Of a stretch of 64,000 nucleotides of DNA, positions 2,948 through 12,985 are shown in pieces (position 1 is the first letter of the stretch; every line of letters starts with the position of its first letter). The stretch comes from Jiangella sp. DSM 45060 (GTDB taxonomy: Bacteria > Actinomycetota > Actinomycetes > Jiangellales > Jiangellaceae). Location: positions 6,344,622 to 6,408,621 of the forward strand of contig NZ_LT629771.1 in the NCBI RefSeq assembly GCF_900105175.1, in the 5' to 3' direction. The notes under the pieces are model-generated. The model was not told where the DNA came from and searched no databases. It was given only the letters and a program-made list of their open reading frames with translations. Both the position numbers and the translations under genes were made by a program.

Positions 2948-4258
2948 TCAGGCGCAGGGCCGGTGCCCGGCCGTCTCGCCGTGCCCGGTCACGCGGTCGA
3001 TCAGCAGGTAGCCGATGTCGTCCCAGACCAGTTCGTAGTCGAGCGACCAGCTCGTGCAGGCCTCGCCGTCCGGCCCGAACTCCGGCGCCTGAATGCTCAC
3101 GAACTCGAGCCATACGCGTGCTCCGGCCGCGGTCTCCTCGAACGAATTCACCACGAACCCGAAGTCGTAGCTGGTCACGAGACCCGCAGCGAAATCGTCG
3201 ACGGACATGTCGCCCTGCCGGCGAGGAGACAGCTGGTCGAACGCCCACTGGTAGTCGCCGGTGTTGATGCCCTCGAAGTAGCTCGCCAACGTCGTCGCGG
3301 CGGCCTCACTCGACTCGTCGGCCGACGGCACGGCCGGAACCGTGTAGCCCTCCGCCGGCCCGAGCGGCGCATCGCACCGGGGAACCGGCGGCTCGGCCAG
3401 CAGGCTGGGATCGGCAAGCCGCTCCGCCAGCAGCTCCACGCGCACCGCGTAGGCCATACCCACTGCGTCGAGACGCCTGGCGACGGCCATGCCGACCACC
3501 TCGCCGTCGCCGCGGACGACCGGGCCGCCCGAGTTACCCGGGTTCACGCTGACGTCCAGCTGGAAGTCCGGCCACAGATCCTCGCTGACGCGCGAGGCGG
3601 TTCCCGACGTGATCGTCAACGGGTCGCCGAGCGGATGGCCGATGACCGCGAGCGCCTCGCCCGCCGAGCTCGGCGCATCGGCCAGGTCGAACGCATGCCC
3701 ACGGACGTCGTCCGACACCTCCAGGACGGCGATGTCGTTCACCTCGTCGATGCCGACGACAGCAGCCGGATACACGCCGCCGTCATCCTGGGCGACGACC
3801 ACTGAGGCGGCCTCCGTCACGACGTGCGCGGCGGTCATCACGAGACCGTCGTCCACCAGGAACGCCGAGCCGACGCCCGATCCGGCACACGTCGTGGCCT
3901 GCACCATGAAGACGCCGGAGCCGACCTCGTCGAAGAGGCCGGCGAAGTCGGCTGGTTCACCGGGCGGCGGGGCGGCCGACGTCGGCGGGTCGGGAGGCAC
4001 CGAGGTGACCGACGCATCCGGGAGCGCCAGCGGCTGCCGATCGTCAGCGGTGCCGGCCGGCCGCTCCCGCTCGAGGACGGCCCACGCCCCGGCGGCCGCC
4101 CCGCCCGCGAGCAGAAGCCCGGTGCCGAAGGCGAGCATCCGCCCGCGCCGCCTCGGCCGCGCTGCCGAGCCGGGACCGCCTCCGCCGGCGGGCGACCCGC
4201 AGGACGCGCAGAACCGCGCGTCGTCGCCGAGCTGCTTCCCACAGGTGCGGCAGTACAT
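2948..4258 (-). CDS. Zinc-ribbon, membrane-anchored trypsin-like serine protease
   Basis: Probable surface-exposed HtrA/trypsin-like protease of 436 residues. Domains in order: an N-terminal zinc ribbon with two CxxC pairs (CRTCGKQ and CASCG), one membrane segment around residues 40-60, a Pro/Ser/Thr linker, and a trypsin fold. The catalytic triad is visible as His in TAAHVV, Asp in NDIAVLE and Ser in NPGNSGGPV. A C-terminal domain of about 110 residues (ATTLASYFEGINTGDYQWAF) looks NTF2-like. No PDZ domain is seen, unlike classical HtrA. A GGGGGAG site precedes ATG 4258. The gene is monocistronic, divergent from the WYL pair at 4404. Confidence 0.87.
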   Translation of the reverse strand: MYCRTCGKQLGDDARFCASCGSPAGGGGPGSAARPRRRGRMLAFGTGLLLAGGAAAGAWAVLERERPAGTADDRQPLALPDASVTSVPPDPPTSAAPPPGEPADFAGLFDEVGSGVFMVQATTCAGSGVGSAFLVDDGLVMTAAHVVTEAASVVVAQDDGGVYPAAVVGIDEVNDIAVLEVSDDVRGHAFDLADAPSSAGEALAVIGHPLGDPLTITSGTASRVSEDLWPDFQLDVSVNPGNSGGPVVRGDGEVVGMAVARRLDAVGMAYAVRVELLAERLADPSLLAEPPVPRCDAPLGPAEGYTVPAVPSADESSEAAATTLASYFEGINTGDYQWAFDQLSPRRQGDMSVDDFAAGLVTSYDFGFVVNSFEETAAGARVWLEFVSIQAPEFGPDGEACTSWSLDYELVWDDIGYLLIDRVTGHGETAGHRPCA

Positions 4259-4403
4259 GAGCTCCCCCCGGACTCGAGATCAGCGTGCCACACGCAGCTC
4301 CGGTGGGGAACCGCCTGGCGCGCGCCCATCCTTCCGGCCGCACGCGTTGCGTCCGGGGTGGCGCCTATCGTGTGCGGCGACCCGTCGTCGGCGAAGGGCA
4401 GGC

Positions 4404-5327
4404 ATGCCAGGAGGACGCGATCAGCTCGGCCCGCTCGAGCGGCTCACGCGGCTGCTGCTCGCACTCGAGTCGGCCGAGCCGGCCGGCCTGCCCGCCGACC
4501 GGCTGGTGGCCATCGGGCAGTACGGCGCCGGCGATGCCTACGACGCGCAGCGCCAGCTCAGCCGCGACGTCACCGCGCTCACCACCATCGGCTGGGACAT
4601 CCGCAACGTCGCCGGCCCCGGCGTCGACGCGCACTACCGGCTGTACGCGCGCGACACCCGGCTGCGGGTGCAGCTCACCCCTGAGCAGCAGGTCGAGCTG
4701 GTGCGCGCGGCGCTGGTCGCGGGCGACGCCGGCTTCCGCGAGCGGCTCGGCGACCTGCCCGCACCGGCCGACGACGACCTGGTCCGCTCCGGCGAGCCGC
4801 GGCGCACCGAGCCCGATCCGCTCACCGAGGCCGCCTACGCCGTCGAGCAGCGCTGCGTCATCCGCTTCACGTACAAGGGCCGCCCGCGGGTGGTGCGCCC
4901 GCAGTTGGTCCGCCCGGGCGCGTCCGGGTGGTACCTGTACGGCCACGAGATCGACGTGCCCGAGATGAAGTGGTTCGTCACGCACCGCATGTCCGGCGTC
5001 GCGCTCGACGCGCCCGGCACCGCCGGGCCGTTGCGTGAGGTGACCGCCGCCGACCTGAACCCCATCACGTGGACCCGCGACCCCCGCGTCGACGTCGTCG
5101 TCGAGACGGCGGCCGAGCACGAGACACAGGTGACGGCCATGCTCGGCGAGCCGTCCATGCGCGCGGCCGACGGCGACGTCGTGCGGCTGACCGTTCCGGT
5201 CACGAACCGGACGGCGTTCCGCGCCCGCCTCTACGAGCTCGGGCGCCGCGCCCGTGTCGTCGCGCCGCCCGAGGTCGTCGACGAGATCGTGGCCGACCTG
5301 CGCCGATTCGTGAGCCCGCTGCGGTGA
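4404..5327 (+). CDS. WYL-domain regulator, PafB-like (pair 1, first gene)
   Basis: Predicted transcriptional regulator of 307 residues. An N-terminal helix-turn-helix-like region (LGPLERLTRLLLALE to about residue 70) precedes a WYL domain carrying a literal WYL triplet in SGWYLYGHE, then a C-terminal WCX-like region ending ELGRRARVVAPPEV. The architecture is that of PafB-type proteins that work with a partner encoded next door; here the partner starts 7 nt downstream. It is a clear paralogue of the product at 10341 (shared GGRDQLGPLER, GWDIRN, LTPEQ and AFRxRxYELG). ATG 4404 is chosen because it aligns with that paralogue. No characterised target can be assigned. WYL domains in general are ligand sensors in DNA-damage and phage-defence regulators. 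Confidence 0.85.
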   Translation: MPGGRDQLGPLERLTRLLLALESAEPAGLPADRLVAIGQYGAGDAYDAQRQLSRDVTALTTIGWDIRNVAGPGVDAHYRLYARDTRLRVQLTPEQQVELVRAALVAGDAGFRERLGDLPAPADDDLVRSGEPRRTEPDPLTEAAYAVEQRCVIRFTYKGRPRVVRPQLVRPGASGWYLYGHEIDVPEMKWFVTHRMSGVALDAPGTAGPLREVTAADLNPITWTRDPRVDVVVETAAEHETQVTAMLGEPSMRAADGDVVRLTVPVTNRTAFRARLYELGRRARVVAPPEVVDEIVADLRRFVSPLR

Positions 5328-5334
5328 GGCCGTC

Positions 5335-6321
5335 GTGAGCACACCCCAGTACGTCCGCCGGTTCGGCCGCGTCACCCGCGCGCTCAACGAGCTGTCGCTG
5401 CACGCCGGCGGCCTGCCCATCGCGGTGCTGGCCGAGACCGTCGGCACCGACGCCGCGACGCTGCGGGCCGAGCTGCGCGCCTACTTCCGCGCCGATGTCG
5501 ACCCCGCGTTCAGCCCGAACGCGATCCGTCAGACGACGATCCGCTTCCACGACGCCGACGGTGTCGACGTCGAGCCCGCGGAGGCCGAGTTCGTGTCCGC
5601 GTCACCGCGGCCCACCGAGGAGGTCGGCGCCGACTACGTCACCGTCGGCGAGCTGGCCCGCATCTACCGCGCCGGGCACGACCTCCTCGCCGTCGAGCCG
5701 GCCAACGCCGCGCTCGAGGGCGCGCTCCAGGCGCTGACGGCGACCGTGCTGGCCGGTCTCGGCACCGAGCGCTCCACCTGGCTCGCCGACCGCGCCGCGT
5801 CGATCGGCGAGGCGCTGCGGTCGCGCCGGCGGGTCGAGCTCACCTACGCCCGGGCCTGGCAGCCCGGCGTCCGCACCCACGTCGTCGAGCCCTACCGGCT
5901 GGTCAAGACCCGCCGCGGCTGGGAGCTCGACGCCGGCTTCGTCGAGGACGACGCGTTCACCGGCCGCGTCGGCACGTTCCTCCTCTCCGGCGTCCGCGTC
6001 GCCACCGTCCTGCCCTCGACGTTCGACCGCCCACCCGACGTCGACGCCCGCATCGCCGCCAACCGCCGCACGACCATGGTCGACCTGGTCGCGCCGCAGG
6101 GCAGCCGCTGGGTGGTCGAGCGCTTCGCCGAGTCGGTCGAGGTGCTCGGCGAGGACGAGGACATGATCCGCATGCGGGCACACCTGCTCCCTCCGGTCGA
6201 CCACCGGCTCGGCCTGCTCCTCCTCGTCGCCGGGCCGGACACCTGGGTCAACACCCCGACCCACCTCCGCGACGCCGGCACGGCCCTCGCCCGCGACCTG
6301 CTGGCCCACTACGAGGGCTGA
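5335..6321 (+). CDS. WYL-domain regulator, PafC-like (pair 1, second gene)
   Basis: Second member of a tandem WYL pair, 328 residues, GTG start 7 nt after the preceding stop and so surely co-transcribed. N-terminal residues 1-60 (YVRRFGRVTRALNELSLHAGG) form the winged-helix-like part; the WYL domain lies around residues 155-225 with a diverged triplet WEL in RRGWELDAGF; the C-terminal region includes GSRWVVERFAESVEV. It is paralogous to the product at 11259 in order, length and motifs. Together with the upstream gene it probably forms a heterodimer, by analogy with the PafB/PafC complex; that is inference. Its last 13 nt overlap a convergent remnant. Confidence 0.85.
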   Translation: MSTPQYVRRFGRVTRALNELSLHAGGLPIAVLAETVGTDAATLRAELRAYFRADVDPAFSPNAIRQTTIRFHDADGVDVEPAEAEFVSASPRPTEEVGADYVTVGELARIYRAGHDLLAVEPANAALEGALQALTATVLAGLGTERSTWLADRAASIGEALRSRRRVELTYARAWQPGVRTHVVEPYRLVKTRRGWELDAGFVEDDAFTGRVGTFLLSGVRVATVLPSTFDRPPDVDARIAANRRTTMVDLVAPQGSRWVVERFAESVEVLGEDEDMIRMRAHLLPPVDHRLGLLLLVAGPDTWVNTPTHLRDAGTALARDLLAHYEG

Positions 6322-6551
6322 CACCTGACCCGGATGAGCGGGACCAGCTCGGCCGGGCGCAGGTCGATCTCGTCGACGCGGTCGAGCGGCACCCGCTCGT
6401 GCGTGTGCCCGTCGGTGAGCTCGGGACCGCAGCGCAGGGCCGGGTCCATGGTCAGCAGGCGCGCCAGGAAGACGTGCTGACGGGTGGGGTGGGCGGCGGT
6501 CGGCGCGACGACGTTCGCCCGGGCGCCGAGGTGATCACGAGGCCCGATCAT
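6309..6551 (-). pseudogene. Possible truncated Nudix-like remnant
   Basis: A short minus-strand frame of 80 codons with strong GC third positions reads like the C-terminal half of a Nudix hydrolase: RQHVFLARLLTMDPALRCGP, then a C-terminal DEIDLRPAELVPLIR. The defining Nudix box (GxxxxxExxxxxxREUxEExGU) is absent because the frame begins after where it should lie. The only ATG (6551) sits inside the promoter of the divergent glycosylase-like gene. I read this as the decayed 3' end of a lost gene. A genuine small protein is possible. The family assignment is tentative. Confidence 0.4.
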
Positions 6552-6572
6552 GTCAGTCCCGGCCCGTAGCGT
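6550..6572 (+). promoter_or_regulatory. PafBC/RecA-NDp-like promoter of the OGG-like gene
   Basis: ATGTCAGTC, then 8 nt, then TAGCGT matches the mycobacterial PafBC/RecA-NDp consensus TTGTCRGTG-N8-TANNNT at 7 of 9 upstream positions with exact spacing and a full TANNNT box. ATG 6580 begins 7 nt after the box, which predicts a leaderless DNA-damage-inducible mRNA. Confidence 0.6.
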
Positions 6573-6579
6573 GACCCCC

Positions 6580-7332
6580 ATGAGCACGTCGCCGCCGCCG
6601 GTGCTGCGCGATCTGCTGGACCGGTACGCCGACGTGCGCGAACAGCCCGTGCGCCTGCGGCCGAGCACCTGGCAGAACGCGCTCATCCGGGTGCCCGAAT
6701 CGCTCGAGGTCACCACGCTGCTGACCAGCCGCCGGTTCACCAGCGCCGTCCCCGGGTCGAAGACGCACGATCGCGCCGTCGGGCGCGAGGGGGTCGAGCG
6801 GGCCTGCGCGGCCATGAACGTCGACGACACGAAGGAGGTGCTGCGCACGTTCGTGCTGGCCATGGCGTGGGCGTCGGGGCTGACGGGCGGGCGGTACCAG
6901 GCCAACACGGCGAGGGCCGTCGTCGATGCGCCGCGGGCGTTCCGCGTGCTCAGCGATGCCGCGAAGGCGCTGCGCCATGCCGGGTCGCTGCGCGACGGCG
7001 CGCTGGAAGAGGTGCACCGCTGGTGGTCGCTCCCCGGCGTCGGGCAGTCCTACGCGAGCAAGTGGTGGGCGCTGGCCGGCCATCGGCGCGGCCGCGAATG
7101 GCAGCCGCTCGTCCTCGACGACCGCGTCTACGCCACGCTCAACGACACCCTGCGCATCGGCGGCACCACGCGGCTGGCGGGCTCGCGGCGCCGGGCCGAC
7201 CGCTACCGCGCCTACGTCGAGACCGTCCACCGCTGGGCGGTCGAGCTGCAGCTCACCGGCCTCGACGTCGACGCCCGGCGCATCGAGTTCGTGCTGTCCC
7301 ACCACAACGGAGGTGCGCCACCGGCTGGATGA
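6580..7332 (+). CDS. OGG-fold DNA glycosylase-like protein, copy 1
   Basis: 250 residues. The segment SLPGVGQSYASKWWALAG is a helix-hairpin-helix (PGVG) followed by a lysine, and 13 residues further PLVLDDRVYATLN supplies an aspartate, the order of the HhH-GPD catalytic Lys and Asp. This suggests the 8-oxoguanine glycosylase OGG-fold family, which would excise damaged bases. No Fe-S cysteines follow. An N-terminal extension (VLRDLLDRYADVREQPVRLR) and a GSKxxDR motif are shared with the paralogue 75 bp downstream. ATG 6580 follows a PafBC-like promoter at leaderless distance. Enzymatic activity is inferred from fold motifs only. Confidence 0.65.
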   Translation: MSTSPPPVLRDLLDRYADVREQPVRLRPSTWQNALIRVPESLEVTTLLTSRRFTSAVPGSKTHDRAVGREGVERACAAMNVDDTKEVLRTFVLAMAWASGLTGGRYQANTARAVVDAPRAFRVLSDAAKALRHAGSLRDGALEEVHRWWSLPGVGQSYASKWWALAGHRRGREWQPLVLDDRVYATLNDTLRIGGTTRLAGSRRRADRYRAYVETVHRWAVELQLTGLDVDARRIEFVLSHHNGGAPPAG

Positions 7333-7406
7333 AACCCCTGAGCATCAGTCCCCTTTGGGCGTAATGTCGCCATCAGTAGTGACGGCGACCCACGGGGGGG
7401 GTGGCC

Positions 7407-8174
7407 ATGATGCGCACGATCAGTGGCCCGGGTCTGCCGGCCGCGCTGCCGGCGCTCGTCGACAAATACCGCGACGCGCGGCCGCCGCCGGTGCGGTTCC
7501 GGCCGCCGAACTGGACGGCGGTGCTCTATCGGGTGCCGCCGGAGCTGAACGTGACGGCGCTGCTGCGCAGCCGCGAGCACACCGCGCCGCTGGCGGGATC
7601 GAAGGCGAAGGACCGCACGGTGACGCTCGGCGCCGTCCGGTCGGCCTGCCACGCGATGGACCTCGGCAACCAGCGCGAGGTGCTACAGGCGTTCGTGCTG
7701 ACGATGGCCTGGGCGTCGGCGGGCGCGGGGAACGCGACGCTGCGGGCGACGGCACGAGGACTGCGCGACCCGGACCGCGCGCACCGCATCCTCGCCGACT
7801 CGGTGCGCCGGCTCCGGTCCGCCGAGACGCTGCACGACGGCGCCCTGGAGGCGACCCACCGGGCGTGGTCGCTGCGCGGCGTCGGCCAGTCGCCGGCCAG
7901 CCGGTGGTGGGCCGCCGCGGGCGACGTCGCGGGACGGGCCTGGCAGCCGCTGGAACTGGACGAGCGGGTGTACGCGACGCTCAACCGCACGTTACAGATC
8001 GGCGGCACTGCCCGGTTGGCCAGCTCGCGCAACCGCGCGGCCCGCTACCGTGCCTACGTCGACGCCGTGCACCGGTGGGCCGTCGAGCTCCGGTTGGAGG
8101 GCCACGACGTGGACGCGGAGCGCGTCGTGTTCGTGCTCGGGCAGCATGCCGGCGGGGCGACCCCGTCGCGCTGA
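7407..8174 (+). CDS. OGG-fold DNA glycosylase-like protein, copy 2, probable active-site variant
   Basis: Paralogue of the preceding gene, about 255 residues, colinear across its whole length (shared GSKxKDR, VLxxFVLxMAWAS, WSLxGVGQS, RVYATLN and RYRAYVxxVHRWAVEL). The equivalent of copy 1's lysine is arginine (QSPASRWWAAAG versus QSYASKWWALAG) and LPGVG has become LRGVG, while the later Asp (LELDERV) is kept. If the lysine is the catalytic nucleophile, this copy has lost lyase chemistry and may bind DNA or act as a partner. The start is ATG 7407 (7410 or GTG 7401 are possible) behind a G-rich tract. Same strand as copy 1, with a 74-bp gap. Confidence 0.6.
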   Translation: MMRTISGPGLPAALPALVDKYRDARPPPVRFRPPNWTAVLYRVPPELNVTALLRSREHTAPLAGSKAKDRTVTLGAVRSACHAMDLGNQREVLQAFVLTMAWASAGAGNATLRATARGLRDPDRAHRILADSVRRLRSAETLHDGALEATHRAWSLRGVGQSPASRWWAAAGDVAGRAWQPLELDERVYATLNRTLQIGGTARLASSRNRAARYRAYVDAVHRWAVELRLEGHDVDAERVVFVLGQHAGGATPSR

Positions 8175-8182
8175 AGGTCACT

Positions 8183-8197
8183 GGAAAGCAACTTTCC
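8183..8197 (+). terminator. Small hairpin after the OGG-like pair
   Basis: Perfect inverted repeat GGAAAG-CAA-CTTTCC, starting 9 nt after the copy 2 stop. There is no downstream T-run, so it is at most a weak or Rho-assisted terminator. Confidence 0.35.
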
Positions 8198-8329
8198 GAT
8201 CGTTCGCCTGACCCACGCGGGGATCTGCGCAATCATGGTCAAATACCGCAACGGCGCGGGAGGTTCCGCGGGGTAGGTCGCCAGCTGTCGACATCGAACC
8301 CGGCACACCGAGGTGATGGAAGGACAGAC

Positions 8330-10144
8330 GTGACGACACACCCTGCTCTCGACGACGAGCAGCAGCAGCTCGACCGCTCGTACGCCCTTCTGGGTGACGA
8401 CGCGCCTGACCTGCCGCCGCTGTTCGGGCGGGTCGACGACGCCGGCGGCTCGCGCTACGTGGGTCTCGACGACGTCCGCGACGAGTCCGGCGACGCCGTC
8501 GTCGTCGCCTGGCACTCGCCCGAGGCCGGCGCGTTCTACCAGTCCTGCGGCACCGACCCGGCCGGCGTCACGCTCAAGCGAGTCGTCACGGTCAGCGACC
8601 GCCAGGTCATCGCCGTGCACGACGAGATCGCCGGCGGCTCCGCGGGCGACGTCAGCAGCGCACACGACCACCGTCCCGTCGTCGGGAAGGTCGTCGTCGC
8701 GGCGCTCGAGCAGTTCCGCACCGGCACGCTCGCCGAGGCCACCGCCACGCTGCGGCCCGAACAGTACGACATCGTCCGGCGGCCGGGCCGGGGCGTCCTC
8801 GTCATCCAGGGCGGGCCCGGCACCGGCAAGACCATCACCGCGCTGCACCGCGCCGCGTGGCTGGCCGCCCACGACGACGCCGTACGCGCCGCCGGCCTGC
8901 TGGTCGTCGCGCCGACTCCGCCCCTGCGCAGCTATGTCGCCGACGTCCTGCCGCGGCTCGGCGCCGACGCCGTCACCACCGACATCGCCTCGCTGTACGA
9001 CGGCCCGGCCCGCCGCAACGGCCGCGACACCCGGCCCGAGGCCGCGCGCGTCAAGGGCTCGGCCGTCATGGCCATGCTCCTGCGCCGGCTGGTCGAGTCG
9101 ACCGGCGCGCCGGCAACGCCCGAAGAGCTGCTCCGCGGCCTGTACGCCGACCCCTCGCTGCTCGAGCGGCTGGCCGACGACCTCCTCAAGGCCGGCCAGC
9201 GCGACGTGCTCTACCGCGAGCCGGCCGCGTCGATCGACGACGAACCGTGGACCGTCGACGACCTCGTGCTGCTCGACGAGCTGTCACACCTGCTCGGCCG
9301 CGCGGCGCCGCACTACGGGCACGCCGTCGTCGACGAGGCGCAGAACCTGTCGCCCATGCAGGCCCGCGCCATCGCCCGCCGCTGCCGCGACGTCACGCTG
9401 GCCGGCGACCTCGAGTGCTCTACCGCCCCCGGTAAGCACGACGACTGGAGCGAGCTGACCAGCTACTTCGGGTCCGAGTTCGGCCAGGGCACGCTGGGCA
9501 TCGGCTACCGCGTGCCCCGTCCGGTCGTCGAGCTGTCGCGGCGGCAGCTGCCCGACGGCGGCACGCTCGACGTGCCCGACTCGCTGCGCGACGGCCTCGG
9601 CGTGCCGCTGGTCCGCCGGGTCGACCCCGGCGACGAGGCGGCGGTCGCGCTGTCCGCCGGCGAGGCCGCGGCGGGAACCGGGTTCAAGGTCGGCGTCGTG
9701 GTCGCTCCGGCCCGCTACGACGAGACGCTGCGCTACTGCCAGTCGGCCGGCGTCAAGGCCGGCGACGGCCGCGACGGCGACCTCGCCCAGCCGGTCACGC
9801 TGCTCCCGGCCGACCTCGTCAACGGGCTCGAGTTCGACGCGATCGCGCTGGTCGAGCCGGCCGAGATCGGCGACGGGACCGAACTGGGCCGGCGGCTCCT
9901 CTACGTCGCGATGACGCGGTGCACGCAGTCGCTGGCGGTCTTCCACTCCGCGCCGCTGCCCGCCGGCATGGAGCACCTGGAGCGCCCGGCGCCGTCGCGC
10001 GAGCCCGAGGTCGAGCACCGTCCGCGCCCCGCACGCACCGAGGACCTCTACGACCTCTTCAAGCTCCTGCGCGACGACGACCGCATGCTGGTCGAGGTGC
10101 TGATCCGCCGGCTGCTGCGCGACTCCCTCGAACGCGACGACTGA
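8330..10144 (+). CDS. HelD-like superfamily 1 helicase/ATPase
   Basis: 604 residues with UvrD-type helicase motifs arranged as in HelD, the ATPase that strips RNA polymerase from nucleic acid: an N-terminal DEQQQLDRSYALL helix, Walker A GGPGTGKTITALHRAAWLA, Walker B HAVVDEAQNLSPMQARAI, a late LVNGLEFDAIALVEPAE (motif V-like) and LLYVAMTRCTQSLAVFHS (motif VI). Classical HelD proteins are about 700-770 residues, so this is a short form. GTG 8330 is preceded by GGAAGGA at good distance. It sits between the OGG-like pair and the second WYL pair. RNA-polymerase recycling, rifamycin tolerance and DNA repair are all open possibilities. Confidence 0.78.
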   Translation: MTTHPALDDEQQQLDRSYALLGDDAPDLPPLFGRVDDAGGSRYVGLDDVRDESGDAVVVAWHSPEAGAFYQSCGTDPAGVTLKRVVTVSDRQVIAVHDEIAGGSAGDVSSAHDHRPVVGKVVVAALEQFRTGTLAEATATLRPEQYDIVRRPGRGVLVIQGGPGTGKTITALHRAAWLAAHDDAVRAAGLLVVAPTPPLRSYVADVLPRLGADAVTTDIASLYDGPARRNGRDTRPEAARVKGSAVMAMLLRRLVESTGAPATPEELLRGLYADPSLLERLADDLLKAGQRDVLYREPAASIDDEPWTVDDLVLLDELSHLLGRAAPHYGHAVVDEAQNLSPMQARAIARRCRDVTLAGDLECSTAPGKHDDWSELTSYFGSEFGQGTLGIGYRVPRPVVELSRRQLPDGGTLDVPDSLRDGLGVPLVRRVDPGDEAAVALSAGEAAAGTGFKVGVVVAPARYDETLRYCQSAGVKAGDGRDGDLAQPVTLLPADLVNGLEFDAIALVEPAEIGDGTELGRRLLYVAMTRCTQSLAVFHSAPLPAGMEHLERPAPSREPEVEHRPRPARTEDLYDLFKLLRDDDRMLVEVLIRRLLRDSLERDD

Positions 10145-10166
10145 ACCCGGCCCGTCGGCCAGATAG

Positions 10167-10179
10167 TTCACCTAGTGAA
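10167..10179. promoter_or_regulatory. Palindromic site TTCAC-N3-GTGAA
   Basis: Perfect 5-bp inverted repeat around CTA in the unusually AT-rich gap before the second WYL pair. It could be an operator for a dimeric regulator; no binding protein is assignable. Confidence 0.3.
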
Positions 10180-10248
10180 ACCATCACCACCTTGTGCCTA
10201 ACCCATTCCAAGCGTTCCAGTGGTGTTTGCCGCAATCTACAGCCTCGT

Positions 10249-10269
10249 AATTCTCCCCAAATGAGAATT
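10249..10269. promoter_or_regulatory. Inverted repeat AATTCTC-N7-GAGAATT, candidate operator
   Basis: Perfect 7-bp arms separated by 7 nt, about 19 bp upstream of the promoter-like element of the second WYL pair and in locally low-GC DNA. The position suits an operator or activator site for the WYL pair or another dimeric regulator. Binding is inference. Confidence 0.4.
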
Positions 10270-10287
10270 GAGGAACTAGTCTGGCCT

Positions 10288-10310
10288 TTCTCATGACACG
10301 GGCATAGCAT
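10288..10310 (+). promoter_or_regulatory. Weak PafBC-like promoter of the second WYL pair
   Basis: TTCTCATGA-N8-TAGCAT matches TTGTCRGTG-N8-TANNNT at 6 of 9 upstream bases with exact spacing. Transcription would start near 10317 and leave a short leader with a GGAGGGG ribosome site before ATG 10341. Confidence 0.35.
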
Positions 10311-10340
10311 GATCGTCCGATGTTGCTGTGGAGGGGCGCC

Positions 10341-11255
10341 ATGGCGGGTGGACGGGACCAACTGGGTCCTTTGGAACGGGTGACGCGGGTGCTGGTCGCG
10401 CTGGTAGCGGCCGAGCCGAAGGGGATCCCGACGCCGCGATTGTTGAGGATCGCGGCCTTCGGCGGGGGAGAAGACCATCATGTACGGCAGTTGAAGCGGC
10501 TGATCGAGGATCTCAACGGCGTCGGCTGGGACATCCGCAACACCGCACCACCCGGCCAGACCGCGGTCTATCGCGCGTTCGCCGGTGACAATCGGCTGCG
10601 ATTGACCCTGACGCCGGAACAACGGACCGAGTTGGCCCGGGCGGCACTGATCGCCGGCAATGCGGCGTTCGCGGAACGGGCCGGCATCGAGGGCACCGCC
10701 GCACCGCCGATTCCCGAGTTGCGCACCGCGCCATTGGCCGAGCGCAACGACGAGGCGCTGAACAAGGTGCTGTATGCGCTGGAGCGGCATTGCCGGCTGC
10801 GATTCCTCTACAAGCGGCGGCAACGGCTGGTGCACCCGCACTTCGTCTATCCGGGCACGTCGGGCTGGCATCTGGTCGGCCACGAGGACGGCAGCGAGAA
10901 GGACAAGCAGTTCGTCACGGACCGCATGTCCGACGTACGGGTCGACCTCCCGCGCACGGCCGACCCGCGGCACGAGCCGTTCCGCGACGAGGTCGATCCG
11001 CTCATGTGGGCGGTCGACGAGCCGGTCGACGTCACGGTCGAGACCACGCCGGCGCACCGCAACCAGGTCGAGACGCTGCTGGGCACGCCGTCGTATCACG
11101 AGATCGACGACGACGTGGTCCGGCTGACCATCCGCGTCACGCACCGGGCGGCGTTCCGCAACCGGGTCTACGAGCTCGGGCCGCGCGTCCGGGTGCTGGC
11201 TCCCGAGACCATCCGCAGCGAGCTCCTGCTGGAGCTGGAATCACTTCTGGACTGA
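10341..11255 (+). CDS. WYL-domain regulator, PafB-like (pair 2, first gene)
   Basis: 304 residues, paralogue of the 4404 product. The N-terminal region GGRDQLGPLERVTRVLVALV is nearly the same as in pair 1. The WYL-type domain has the triplet WHL in SGWHLVGHE, and the C-terminal region reads AAFRNRVYELGPRVRVLAPE. ATG 10341 is preferred over ATG 10320 because it aligns with the paralogue and has GGAGGGG upstream. The partner gene begins 3 nt after its stop. Codon use early in the gene is slightly less GC-extreme than in pair 1 (more TTG and GAT), which may reflect separate ancestry rather than recent duplication. Confidence 0.85.
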   Translation: MAGGRDQLGPLERVTRVLVALVAAEPKGIPTPRLLRIAAFGGGEDHHVRQLKRLIEDLNGVGWDIRNTAPPGQTAVYRAFAGDNRLRLTLTPEQRTELARAALIAGNAAFAERAGIEGTAAPPIPELRTAPLAERNDEALNKVLYALERHCRLRFLYKRRQRLVHPHFVYPGTSGWHLVGHEDGSEKDKQFVTDRMSDVRVDLPRTADPRHEPFRDEVDPLMWAVDEPVDVTVETTPAHRNQVETLLGTPSYHEIDDDVVRLTIRVTHRAAFRNRVYELGPRVRVLAPETIRSELLLELESLLD

Positions 11256-11258
11256 GCC

Positions 11259-12254
11259 ATGAGCGTTCCTCCGCCCGTGTTCGTCCGCCGCTTCGAGCGG
11301 GTGACGCACGCGCTTCGCATCCTCACCATGCACCCCGACGGCGTCCCGCTGCGCCGGCTCGCGGCCGAGCTGGACGTCGACGAGCAGACGCTGCGCGACG
11401 AGATCGTGGCGTTCTACTGCGCCGACAGCGCGGCCGTCGACACCGGTCCGCTGCGCCAGGTGCGCATCGAGTTCGTCGGCGCCGACGGCGAGACCGACGA
11501 CGTCGACCCGGCGACCGCCGAGGTCGTGCGCGCGTCGACCGACCACCCGGCCGCCGAGATCGGCGTGCTGCACACGGCGCCGGCCGACCTCGCGTACATC
11601 TACCGCGCCGGGCAGGCGCTGCTGTCGCTGGAGCCCGACAACGACGTGCTCGACGGCGCGCTGCGGACGCTCGGCGACACCATGCTGCGCGGCATCCGCC
11701 CGGTCGACGACCACTGGAAGGCCGAGCTGGCCGCCCTGCTCGTCGACGCGATCCGGCGGCGGCGCTGGGTGCGGGTCGAGTACACGCCGGTGTGGCACGA
11801 CGACAGCATGGAGCACCGCATCGCGCCGTACCGCCTGCTGCGCACCCGCCGCGGCTGGGAGGTCGACGCGGGCATGTCGGCCGACGGGCGGGTGGTCGGC
11901 AGCTTCCTGCTCAACGGCATCCGTGACGCGACGCTGCTGGACGAGACGTTCGAGCGGCCGCCGGAGGTCGAGGAACGTCTGGCCGGGCACCGCAGCGTGC
12001 AGCAGATCGAACTGGTGGTGCCGCAGGACGCGCGCTGGGCGGTGGACCGGTTCGCCGAGAGCTCCGAGCTGCTCGCCGAGGACGAGGAGTCGGTGAAGGT
12101 GCGGGTCCGGCTGCTGTCGCCGGTCGACCGGCGGCTCGGCATCCTGTTGCTGAGCGCCGGGCCGCTGGCGTTCGTCACCGATCCGCCCGCGCTCGCCGAC
12201 GCCGGACGCCGGTTGGCGCGCGAGTTGCTGGAGCACCACCACACCGCCCGCTGA
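11259..12254 (+). CDS. WYL-domain regulator, PafC-like (pair 2, second gene)
   Basis: 331 residues. N-terminal FVRRFERVTHALRILTMHPDG winged-helix-like region, central WYL-type domain with the diverged triplet WEV (RRGWEVDAGM), and a C-terminal segment DARWAVDRFAESSELLAEDE matching pair 1. The ATG lies 3 nt after the previous stop, so translation is coupled. It probably heterodimerises with the 10341 product, as PafB and PafC do. The two WYL pairs bracket the glycosylase-like and HelD-like genes on the same strand, the main reason to suspect a functional cluster. Confidence 0.85.
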   Translation: MSVPPPVFVRRFERVTHALRILTMHPDGVPLRRLAAELDVDEQTLRDEIVAFYCADSAAVDTGPLRQVRIEFVGADGETDDVDPATAEVVRASTDHPAAEIGVLHTAPADLAYIYRAGQALLSLEPDNDVLDGALRTLGDTMLRGIRPVDDHWKAELAALLVDAIRRRRWVRVEYTPVWHDDSMEHRIAPYRLLRTRRGWEVDAGMSADGRVVGSFLLNGIRDATLLDETFERPPEVEERLAGHRSVQQIELVVPQDARWAVDRFAESSELLAEDEESVKVRVRLLSPVDRRLGILLLSAGPLAFVTDPPALADAGRRLARELLEHHHTAR

Positions 12255-12284
12255 CCGCCGGACGCCGCGTGTCAGGCTGTCGGC

Positions 12285-12707
12285 ATGGCTGAGAACGCAC
12301 GACGCACGGTGTCCCTGCGGCGAGTCGGCGAGCGCCGCTACGTCGCCACCAACGCCCGCGGTGGCGAACTGCCGTTCGGGCAGGGCGACGACGGCGACTT
12401 CACCCCGGTCGAGCTGCTGCTGGCCGCGATCGCCGGCTGCTCGGCCATCGACATCGACTTCATCACCTCGCGCCGTGCCGAGCCCGAGACGTTCGAGCTG
12501 ACGACCACCGCGAACAAGATCCGCGACGACCAGGGCAACCGGCTCGAGGACATCGAGGTGTCGATCAGGATCCGGTTCCCCGACGGCGCCGACGGCGACG
12601 CCGCCCGCGAGGTGCTGCCCGACGCCGCCAAGAAGTCACACGACCGCCTGTGCACCGTGAGCCGGACCGTCGAGCTCGGCACCCCGATCGGGATGCGGCT
12701 GGACTAG
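12285..12707 (+). CDS. OsmC-family protein
   Basis: 140-residue cytoplasmic OsmC/YhfA-like protein, a fold that often reduces organic hydroperoxides with two cysteines. Both candidate cysteines are present: AIAGCSAID on the central helix and HDRLCTVSRTVE near the C-terminus. DFTPVELLLAAIAGC is a family hallmark. It lies 30 bp after the WYL pair on the same strand and could be read through from it. The stop overlaps the convergent DUF2277 gene by 4 nt. Peroxidase activity is the family expectation; a detoxifying substrate is not evident. Confidence 0.88.
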   Translation: MAENARRTVSLRRVGERRYVATNARGGELPFGQGDDGDFTPVELLLAAIAGCSAIDIDFITSRRAEPETFELTTTANKIRDDQGNRLEDIEVSIRIRFPDGADGDAAREVLPDAAKKSHDRLCTVSRTVELGTPIGMRLD

Positions 12708-12985
12708 CGCGGCGCGCCCGCGGCGATGCGGGACTCGTAGCGGGCCCGTGCCTTGGCGGCCTCGACCTCGCGGTCGCGCGGCGGGGCGTTGGTGACCAGC
12801 GCGTCGAGCAGGTGGCGCGTGGAGTGCGCGATCTCCTCGACGGCGACGTCGAACGCCTCGCGGTTGGCCTGCGACGGGTTGCGGGTGCCGGCCAGCTTGC
12901 GCACGTACTGCAGCGCGGCGTCGTACACCTCGTCGTTGGTGGCGGGCGGGGCCAGGTTGTTGAGGGGTCTGATGTTGCGGCACAT
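12704..12985 (-). CDS. DUF2277 family protein
   Basis: 93-residue protein matching the DUF2277 family, whose members start MCRNIRPL and carry an AALQYVRKLAG helix; both are visible here. All-helical, no signal peptide, function unknown. It overlaps the convergent OsmC stop by 4 nt. ATG 12985 gives the canonical family N-terminus. Confidence 0.88.
   Translation of the reverse strand: MCRNIRPLNNLAPPATNDEVYDAALQYVRKLAGTRNPSQANREAFDVAVEEIAHSTRHLLDALVTNAPPRDREVEAAKARARYESRIAAGAPR

Follow-up and report, generated by a model that had tools for sequence, protein, structure and literature searches.

A HelD-like ATPase without the polymerase-entering elements of HelD in a putatively defence-derived locus of Jiangella

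In a stretch of 64,000 nucleotides from Jiangella sp. DSM 45060 (contig NZ_LT629771.1, positions 6,344,622 to 6,408,621; referred to as the window), seven genes, all located on the plus strand, fill positions 4404-12254: a pair of WYL regulators resembling PafB and PafC (A1 and B1, pair 1), two glycosylase-like paralogues (OGG1 and OGG2), a HelD-like ATPase and a second regulator pair (A2 and B2, pair 2). Our strongest result, and the most interesting one, is that the HelD-like protein has kept its motor and lost the elements with which HelD enters RNA polymerase, and that its relatives outside the family are encoded next to defence-type helicases. We tentatively read the locus as a module for nucleic-acid processing that derives from defence, is retained in the lineage and has a local PafBC-like regulator of its own; we give this reading somewhat less than an even chance. 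The locus was compared gene by gene in a Jiangella sample comprising the window's own genome and stretches of 11 further genomes. Strand and gene order are as an earlier note on this DNA had described them, and its naming at the family level (WYL pairs, OGG-like paralogues, a HelD relative) agrees with Pfam and NCBIfam.

The HelD-like protein compared with HelD

HelD has been studied as a factor clearing RNA polymerase, and the parts with which it enters the enzyme are the N-terminal coiled coil (NCC), which inserts into the secondary channel, the clamp-opening domain (CO) and the PCh-loop. In the alignment with HelD of Mycobacterium smegmatis (6yxu), residues 27-255, 263-325 and 328-550 of the HelD-like protein correspond to HelD residues 67-293, 399-449 and 521-721, respectively, while an excerpt of PMC7749160 places the NCC at HelD residues 1-69, the CO at 261-447 and the PCh-loop at 448-503. 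The NCC, for which we used an alignment of 17 rows, is missing from the HelD-like protein: its alignment begins at residue 27, opposite HelD residue 67, and the model displays a single helix at residues 5-21. HelD residues 293-399 and 449-521 have no counterpart, which leaves a stub of the CO with about 105 residues missing and no PCh-loop. The Walker motifs are intact and the SF1 ATPase core is present. The predicted structure (mean predicted local distance difference test score, pLDDT, 78.9) finds M. smegmatis HelD as its top Foldseek match (E 1.3e-30), and the NCBIfam models HelR and HelD_MYCSM reach 169-200 bits, which is far below their cut-offs of 750-1100. The start of the gene was set at the GTG at position 8330, because indels immediately upstream vary between species.

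The missing PCh-loop alone is nothing new, since HelD isoforms without it are frequent in the class, where they were found at 37 loci, one of them in the window's own genome. Of the two further HelD genes of this genome, L083 has the loop length and L082 lacks it. The distance between Walker A and Walker B is 172-175 residues in Jiangella and 65-68 in two sister-genus copies, compared to 239-271 in loop-less and 283-345 in loop-bearing relatives (the set leaves out L173 and L261). Among the measured loci, distances of less than 200 residues, which correspond to the loss of most of the CO as well, were confined to Jiangella and the sister genus. Plasmid records matched the HelD-like protein in 49 cases, all with less than 60% identity.

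Since the NCC, a part of the CO and the PCh-loop are missing, polymerase displacement, which the earlier note had brought in from HelD, cannot be transferred to this protein, and the textbook HelD/HelR action was rejected as a candidate on the same grounds. Having lost the polymerase-entering elements, the HelD-like protein would most likely be a core motor that acts on DNA or RNA, or that remodels a partner protein, rather than one that clears the polymerase.

Neighbourhoods of related HelD-like genes

The class-wide HelD search found some match in 239 of the 296 genomes, and of the matches listed from beyond the family, a protein encoded in G064 stood clearly closer than the others. When the family of G064 was searched with this protein (match in 293 of the 294 genomes), the matches listed included those of G674 (66%) and G700 (55%). 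In a tree of 27 rows, the proteins of G064, G674 and G700 form one clade with three Jiangella rows and the sister-genus genome G018 (support 99/95); in a tree of 57 rows, which included G064 as the sole member of the trio, the support for the clade was 100/97. G018 and G129 have long end branches, and their placement in the tree is unsure.

In all three of these genomes, the HelD-like gene directly adjoins or overlaps a gene that encodes a giant helicase. The two intact helicase copies that were scanned match the PADLOC model PDC-S37 with 1231.6 and 1243.2 bits and the model Hhe with 539.4 and 566.6 bits; that of G064 was matched by tblastn with 61% identity. G064 additionally harbors matches to DrmB (225.8 bits) and DrmC (150.9 bits). 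The giant helicase was thus present at 3/3 of these HelD/helicase loci and at 0/68 of the other loci picked for counting, from which seven Jiangella repeats (L096-L102) and a number of repeats or fragments (L071, L152, L070 and L001) had been dropped beforehand.

A further neighbour is an SMC-like gene, which several defence ATPase models match weakly (best 77-80 bits). With a score above 100 bits it was found at two of the 12 Jiangella loci, one of the three HelD/helicase loci and one of the five HelD loci with a long C-terminus. At that score it was absent from the 49 other HelD loci as well as from the single sister-genus locus and the single G129 locus. In the two Jiangella genomes, the gene is located between B1 and OGG1 together with a gene for a partner of 124 amino acids (L065 7489-10313 and L069 6984-9808; related pairs: L262 and L222). 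Both genes recur in G700 beside the operon of HelD-like gene and giant helicase as well as in G068, where an OGG-family gene lies at a distance of about 4 kb; in G117 an SMC-like gene lies near a HelD-like gene, with no 124-residue partner detected. As a baseline, SMC-like matches of at least 276 bits occurred in 8 of 60 related genomes, two of the eight being the Jiangella copies at the locus. Defence genes in general tend to cluster.

Some further observations concern the same gene families. The HelD-like proteins of L158, L190, L191 and L193 have 1051-1311 amino acids, about 610-770 of which follow Walker B. The window's own genome encodes a giant helicase (G000:C1:5252428-5257764), which is 38% identical to that of G674 and lies away from the HelD genes, and in a genome of another family (G024:C1:1036961-1046367) an SMC-like gene lies about 3 kb from a giant-helicase relative.

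Conservation, composition and regulatory DNA of the Jiangella locus

The HelD-like gene, A2 and B2 follow each other in this order in all 12 Jiangella genomes, and the arrangement of OGG gene(s), HelD-like gene and pair 2 is likewise present in 12/12. OGG2 is found in 11/12 and OGG1, as an unbroken match, in 9/12 (absent in L061 and L064 and broken in L069, where the pieces alone match, at 9885-10186). Either OGG1 or OGG2 is missing in 4/12, but every genome retains at least one OGG gene. A1 and B1 are located at the locus in half of the genomes (6/12; in L067, only the C-terminal part of A1 is matched). The co-location described in the earlier note thus holds for the OGG genes, the HelD-like gene and pair 2, but not for pair 1, which is optional; we consequently dropped two bracketing WYL pairs as the defining arrangement. 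Ratios of nonsynonymous to synonymous substitution rates of 0.17-0.31 were obtained in eight out of eight pairwise comparisons (OGG1, OGG2, HelD-like, A1 and B1 against G002; OGG1, OGG2 and HelD-like against G009).

In the sister genus, the end of a HelD-like gene stands immediately before A2 and B2 in G016, and in G018 A2/B2 and the HelD-like gene lie about 4 kb apart with other genes in between. Outside Jiangella, we read the neighbours of similar WYL pairs at six loci, which are flanked by varied genes. The synteny that the earlier note had proposed to search for is therefore conserved in Jiangella and, for HelD-like gene, A2 and B2, in G016, while the WYL pairs that we read beyond the family have varied neighbours. 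In one Jiangella genome (L059 11087-12666), genes for proteins of 346 and 180 amino acids are located between the HelD-like gene and A2. This two-gene set is tied to the HelD-like gene in three genomes from two genera (the other two at L152 3750-5326 and L154 6843-8410) and gave no match in Pfam up to E 0.01 or in PADLOC up to E 0.001.

OGG1 and OGG2 are 57% identical, and the alignment of the OGG proteins reveals a hairpin-like LxGVGQSxAS segment as well as D177, invariant in 19 of 19 rows, which we take to be the candidate catalytic Asp following the hairpin in HhH-GPD enzymes. There is no Lys at the OGG1 K249 position, hence the proteins are perhaps monofunctional. For the OGG model, which is of middling quality (pLDDT 67.7), Foldseek listed no relative at E 0.001, and a second-look aligner placed Ogg of S. 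solfataricus first (Z 4.5); HhH-GPD glycosylases make up 27 of the 32 rows shown, all of them with Z below 5 and hence below 8. The OGG1 search matched 12 of 80 related genomes, which are the 12 Jiangella genomes, and the family PF21790 is sparse in the phylum (16 of 396 genomes). Beside the HelD-like motor, OGG1 and OGG2 would plausibly remove an unusual base, such as one that is modified in invading DNA. At L226 (about 9230-9802), an OGG-family gene directly follows genes that look, by eye, like a type I restriction-modification system.

The genome holds 18 WYL matches, two of which constitute a PafB/PafC-like pair located 3' of pup, proteasome genes and pafA (L121 7673-9693; pup, the proteasome genes and pafA were named by reading their sequences). 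Pairs 1 and 2 each consist of two adjacent WYL genes in the PafB/PafC layout, away from that locus; they are paralogues of PafBC, which has its own genes at another site. An excerpt of PMC11804915 describes that PafB R211/R214 and PafC R201/R204 face single-stranded DNA (ssDNA), that the R211/R214 pair and Y196 of PafB are required for ssDNA binding, which is abolished in the R211/R214 double mutant, and that a PafC mutant alone still bound ssDNA, because of which we consider the change in the A subunit to weigh most. Among the A subunits, R211 is kept in 0 of 29 rows (V, I or Y instead) and R214 in all 29; among the B subunits, R201 is kept in 0 and R204 in 1 of 31 rows (a further A row, L074, consists of a gap; one locus is represented twice, as L071 and L154; A1 of L065 was left out). 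In addition, A2 has an H in place of the Y of the WYL motif. The ligand of the A/B pairs has thus likely changed relative to that of PafBC, with one of the two PafB arginines remaining. The canonical pair at L121 and the replaced sensing arginines rule out that pairs 1 and 2 are PafBC itself, and the damage activation that the earlier note had ascribed to them is not transferable to paralogues in which most of the ssDNA-sensing arginines are missing. The biochemistry of neither PafBC nor HelD should be transferred to the proteins of this locus.

Within the non-coding leader of the HelD-like gene, two stretches of 31 and 18 bases are invariant, while no such run of at least 15 is found in the first 600 bases of the coding sequence. 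The leader matched once per Jiangella genome; outside the genus, 48 genomes were searched without a match. The RNA fold of the leader is unremarkable (z -1.19), and Rfam gave one match within positions 4200-12800 (E 0.16), under the family threshold. A scan of the genome with the box upstream of A2 yielded 22 places at up to three mismatches, compared to 4 for the reversed pattern, and revealed no clear regulon. We propose that the A2/B2 heterodimer, and A1/B1 where present, would sense a ligand other than the ssDNA of PafBC, or one weaker than it, and would switch the genes via the conserved leaders located in front of the HelD-like gene and A2. Coordinates are compiled in Table 1.

Table 1 Genes and candidate regulatory elements of the locus, in positions of the window.
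Feature	Position	Strand	Evidence
WYL A1, PafB-like subunit of pair 1	4404-5327	+	WCX 34.8 bits, over cut-off; WYL 21.3 bits (cut-off 21.8)
WYL B1, PafC-like subunit of pair 1	5335-6321	+	WYL 29 bits, over cut-off (Pfam)
OGG1, HhH-GPD-like, glycosylase-like	6580-7332	+	PF21790 89.3 bits (cut-off 27)
OGG2, paralogue of OGG1	7401-8174 (start possibly 7407)	+	PF21790 60.4 bits (cut-off 27)
HelD-like leader, non-coding	8190-8329	+	Invariant runs 8223-8253 and 8263-8280 in 12/12 Jiangella
Candidate 13-codon leader frame	8235-8276	+	Length and stop constant in 12/12; residues vary at three codons
HelD-like SF1 ATPase, 604 amino acids, without NCC, most of CO and PCh-loop	8330-10144	+	UvrD/AAA motor domains (Pfam)
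Inverted repeat TTCAC-N3-GTGAA, candidate operator (by eye)	10167-10179		Upstream of A2; imperfectly conserved
Promoter-like box upstream of A2	10299-10315	+	Identical in 11/12 aligned leaders; one base off in L066
WYL A2, PafB-like subunit of pair 2	10341-11255	+	WCX 33.4 and WYL 29.6 bits, both over cut-off
WYL B2, PafC-like subunit of pair 2	11259-12254	+	WYL 23.8 bits, over cut-off

On the minus strand, positions 6324-6551 hold a remnant that resembles the end of a NUDIX-type gene (NUDIX assigned by eye), which is longer in L062 (11419-11829). Upstream of the locus, likewise on the minus strand, lie genes for an AAA ATPase (1504-2823), with sub-threshold IetA-like matches (best 79 bits), and for a trypsin-like protease (2948-4258). 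A protease gene 60% identical to the latter adjoins the HelD-like gene divergently in the sister-genus stretch L152.

Readings of the locus and comparison with known systems

A defence-derived module is the reading that we prefer, although several results weigh against it. The locus is retained in 12/12 Jiangella genomes, whereas defence genes are usually patchily distributed. The downstream neighbours g10 and g11 are found in 12/12 as well, so that an order common to the genus carries little weight as a sign of joint function. There is no giant helicase at the Jiangella locus, and PADLOC returned generic WYL and weak helicase-type matches for the seven proteins and no system-specific model. 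OGG1 had no match in plasmid and phage records, and 15 other OGG loci show mixed contexts, around which the reading of genes is unreliable in stretches of lower G+C. Loop-less HelD-like genes with long C-terminal extensions (L158, L190 and L193) lie among genes that look ordinary by eye. Moreover, the loci used for the neighbour counts were non-random picks among the best matches with flanks of about 1-10 kb. That the locus represents a new defence unit, in which an armless HelD-derived motor, HhH-GPD enzymes and a re-tooled WYL heterodimer descend from operons of HelD-like gene and giant helicase, is a more specific proposal, and we regard it as rather improbable.

If there is no joint system at all, the order would be kept within one genus, at a site where some genes come and go, with the regulators, the OGG proteins and the HelD-like protein acting separately. 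This is unlikely in our view, albeit with a real chance of being correct, since g10 and g11 equal the block itself in synteny, WYL pairs of the same family adjoin varied genes outside Jiangella, the genes are separated in G018, and the OGG1 search found no OGG genes in the sister genus. What speaks against it is that at least one OGG gene persists in every Jiangella genome despite the losses of OGG1 or OGG2, that the adjacency of the HelD-like gene, A2 and B2 recurs in G016, and that the leaders are strongly conserved. The earlier note had left the choice between a repair unit and a defence locus, and the evidence leans to the defence type. In a DNA-damage unit, the PafBC-like pairs would sense ssDNA after damage and turn on a repair module of glycosylase and helicase, which would fit the PafB/PafC-like architecture, the one sensing arginine of PafB that is kept in 29/29 A rows, and the second-look match of the OGG model to S. 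solfataricus Ogg; according to passages of PMC10693628, SiwR, another WYL factor, can control adjacent genes after genotoxic stress. We nevertheless consider such a unit improbable, given that PafB R211 is replaced in 29/29 A rows and PafC R201 in 31/31 B rows, that the R211/R214 double mutant of PafB loses ssDNA binding (excerpt of PMC11804915), and that a canonical PafBC is present elsewhere in the genome. Protection of RNA polymerase of the HelR type, for instance against rifamycins, appears very unlikely: although the nearest solved structures are those of M. smegmatis HelD and the best family models are HelR/HelD, the NCC and the PCh-loop are absent, an excerpt of PMC8655204 ascribes the removal of nucleic acids and rifampicin by class II HelD to the PCh-loop, and the genome has its two other HelD genes.

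A HelD-like clade that retains the motor, has shed the polymerase parts and has outside members located next to defence-type helicases would exemplify a transcription-recycling motor that has taken on another job. Our searches of the open-access literature turned up no description of this locus and none of HelD in a defence role. According to an excerpt of PMC10693628, regulation of phage defence by a WYL factor had not yet been described in Actinobacteria as of 2023; should the locus be a defence, it would offer a testable case of such regulation. The PafBC-like pairs with altered sensing residues furthermore constitute a natural set with which to ask what else WYL pairs sense.

Among known systems, class II HelD/HelR (6yxu) is the best match of the HelD-like protein in sequence and fold and shares the NG-like region and the SF1 1A/2A core with Walker A and B, but unlike it has the NCC, about 105 more CO residues and the PCh-loop. 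The operons of HelD-like gene and giant helicase in G064, G674 and G700 encode members of the same clade (99/95), which, in contrast to the Jiangella proteins, have 733-755 amino acids, an NCC-like N-terminus and a CO of full length; no OGG gene or WYL pair was detected in these stretches. Brig1, which an excerpt of PMC11078745 describes as a monofunctional glycosylase from actinobacterial defence islands that acts on modified phage bases, resembles in idea the role suggested here for OGG1 and OGG2, which belong to PF21790. PafBC shares with pairs 1 and 2 the two adjacent WYL genes with PafB- and PafC-like layout, whereas the pairs lie off the pup/proteasome locus and have their sensing arginines largely replaced. 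SiwR of M. smegmatis, finally, is likewise a WYL factor that governs an adjacent operon in an actinobacterium, but differs from the pairs described here in being a homodimer that uses both R204 and R207 and in having targets of the DinB superfamily (excerpt of PMC10693628).

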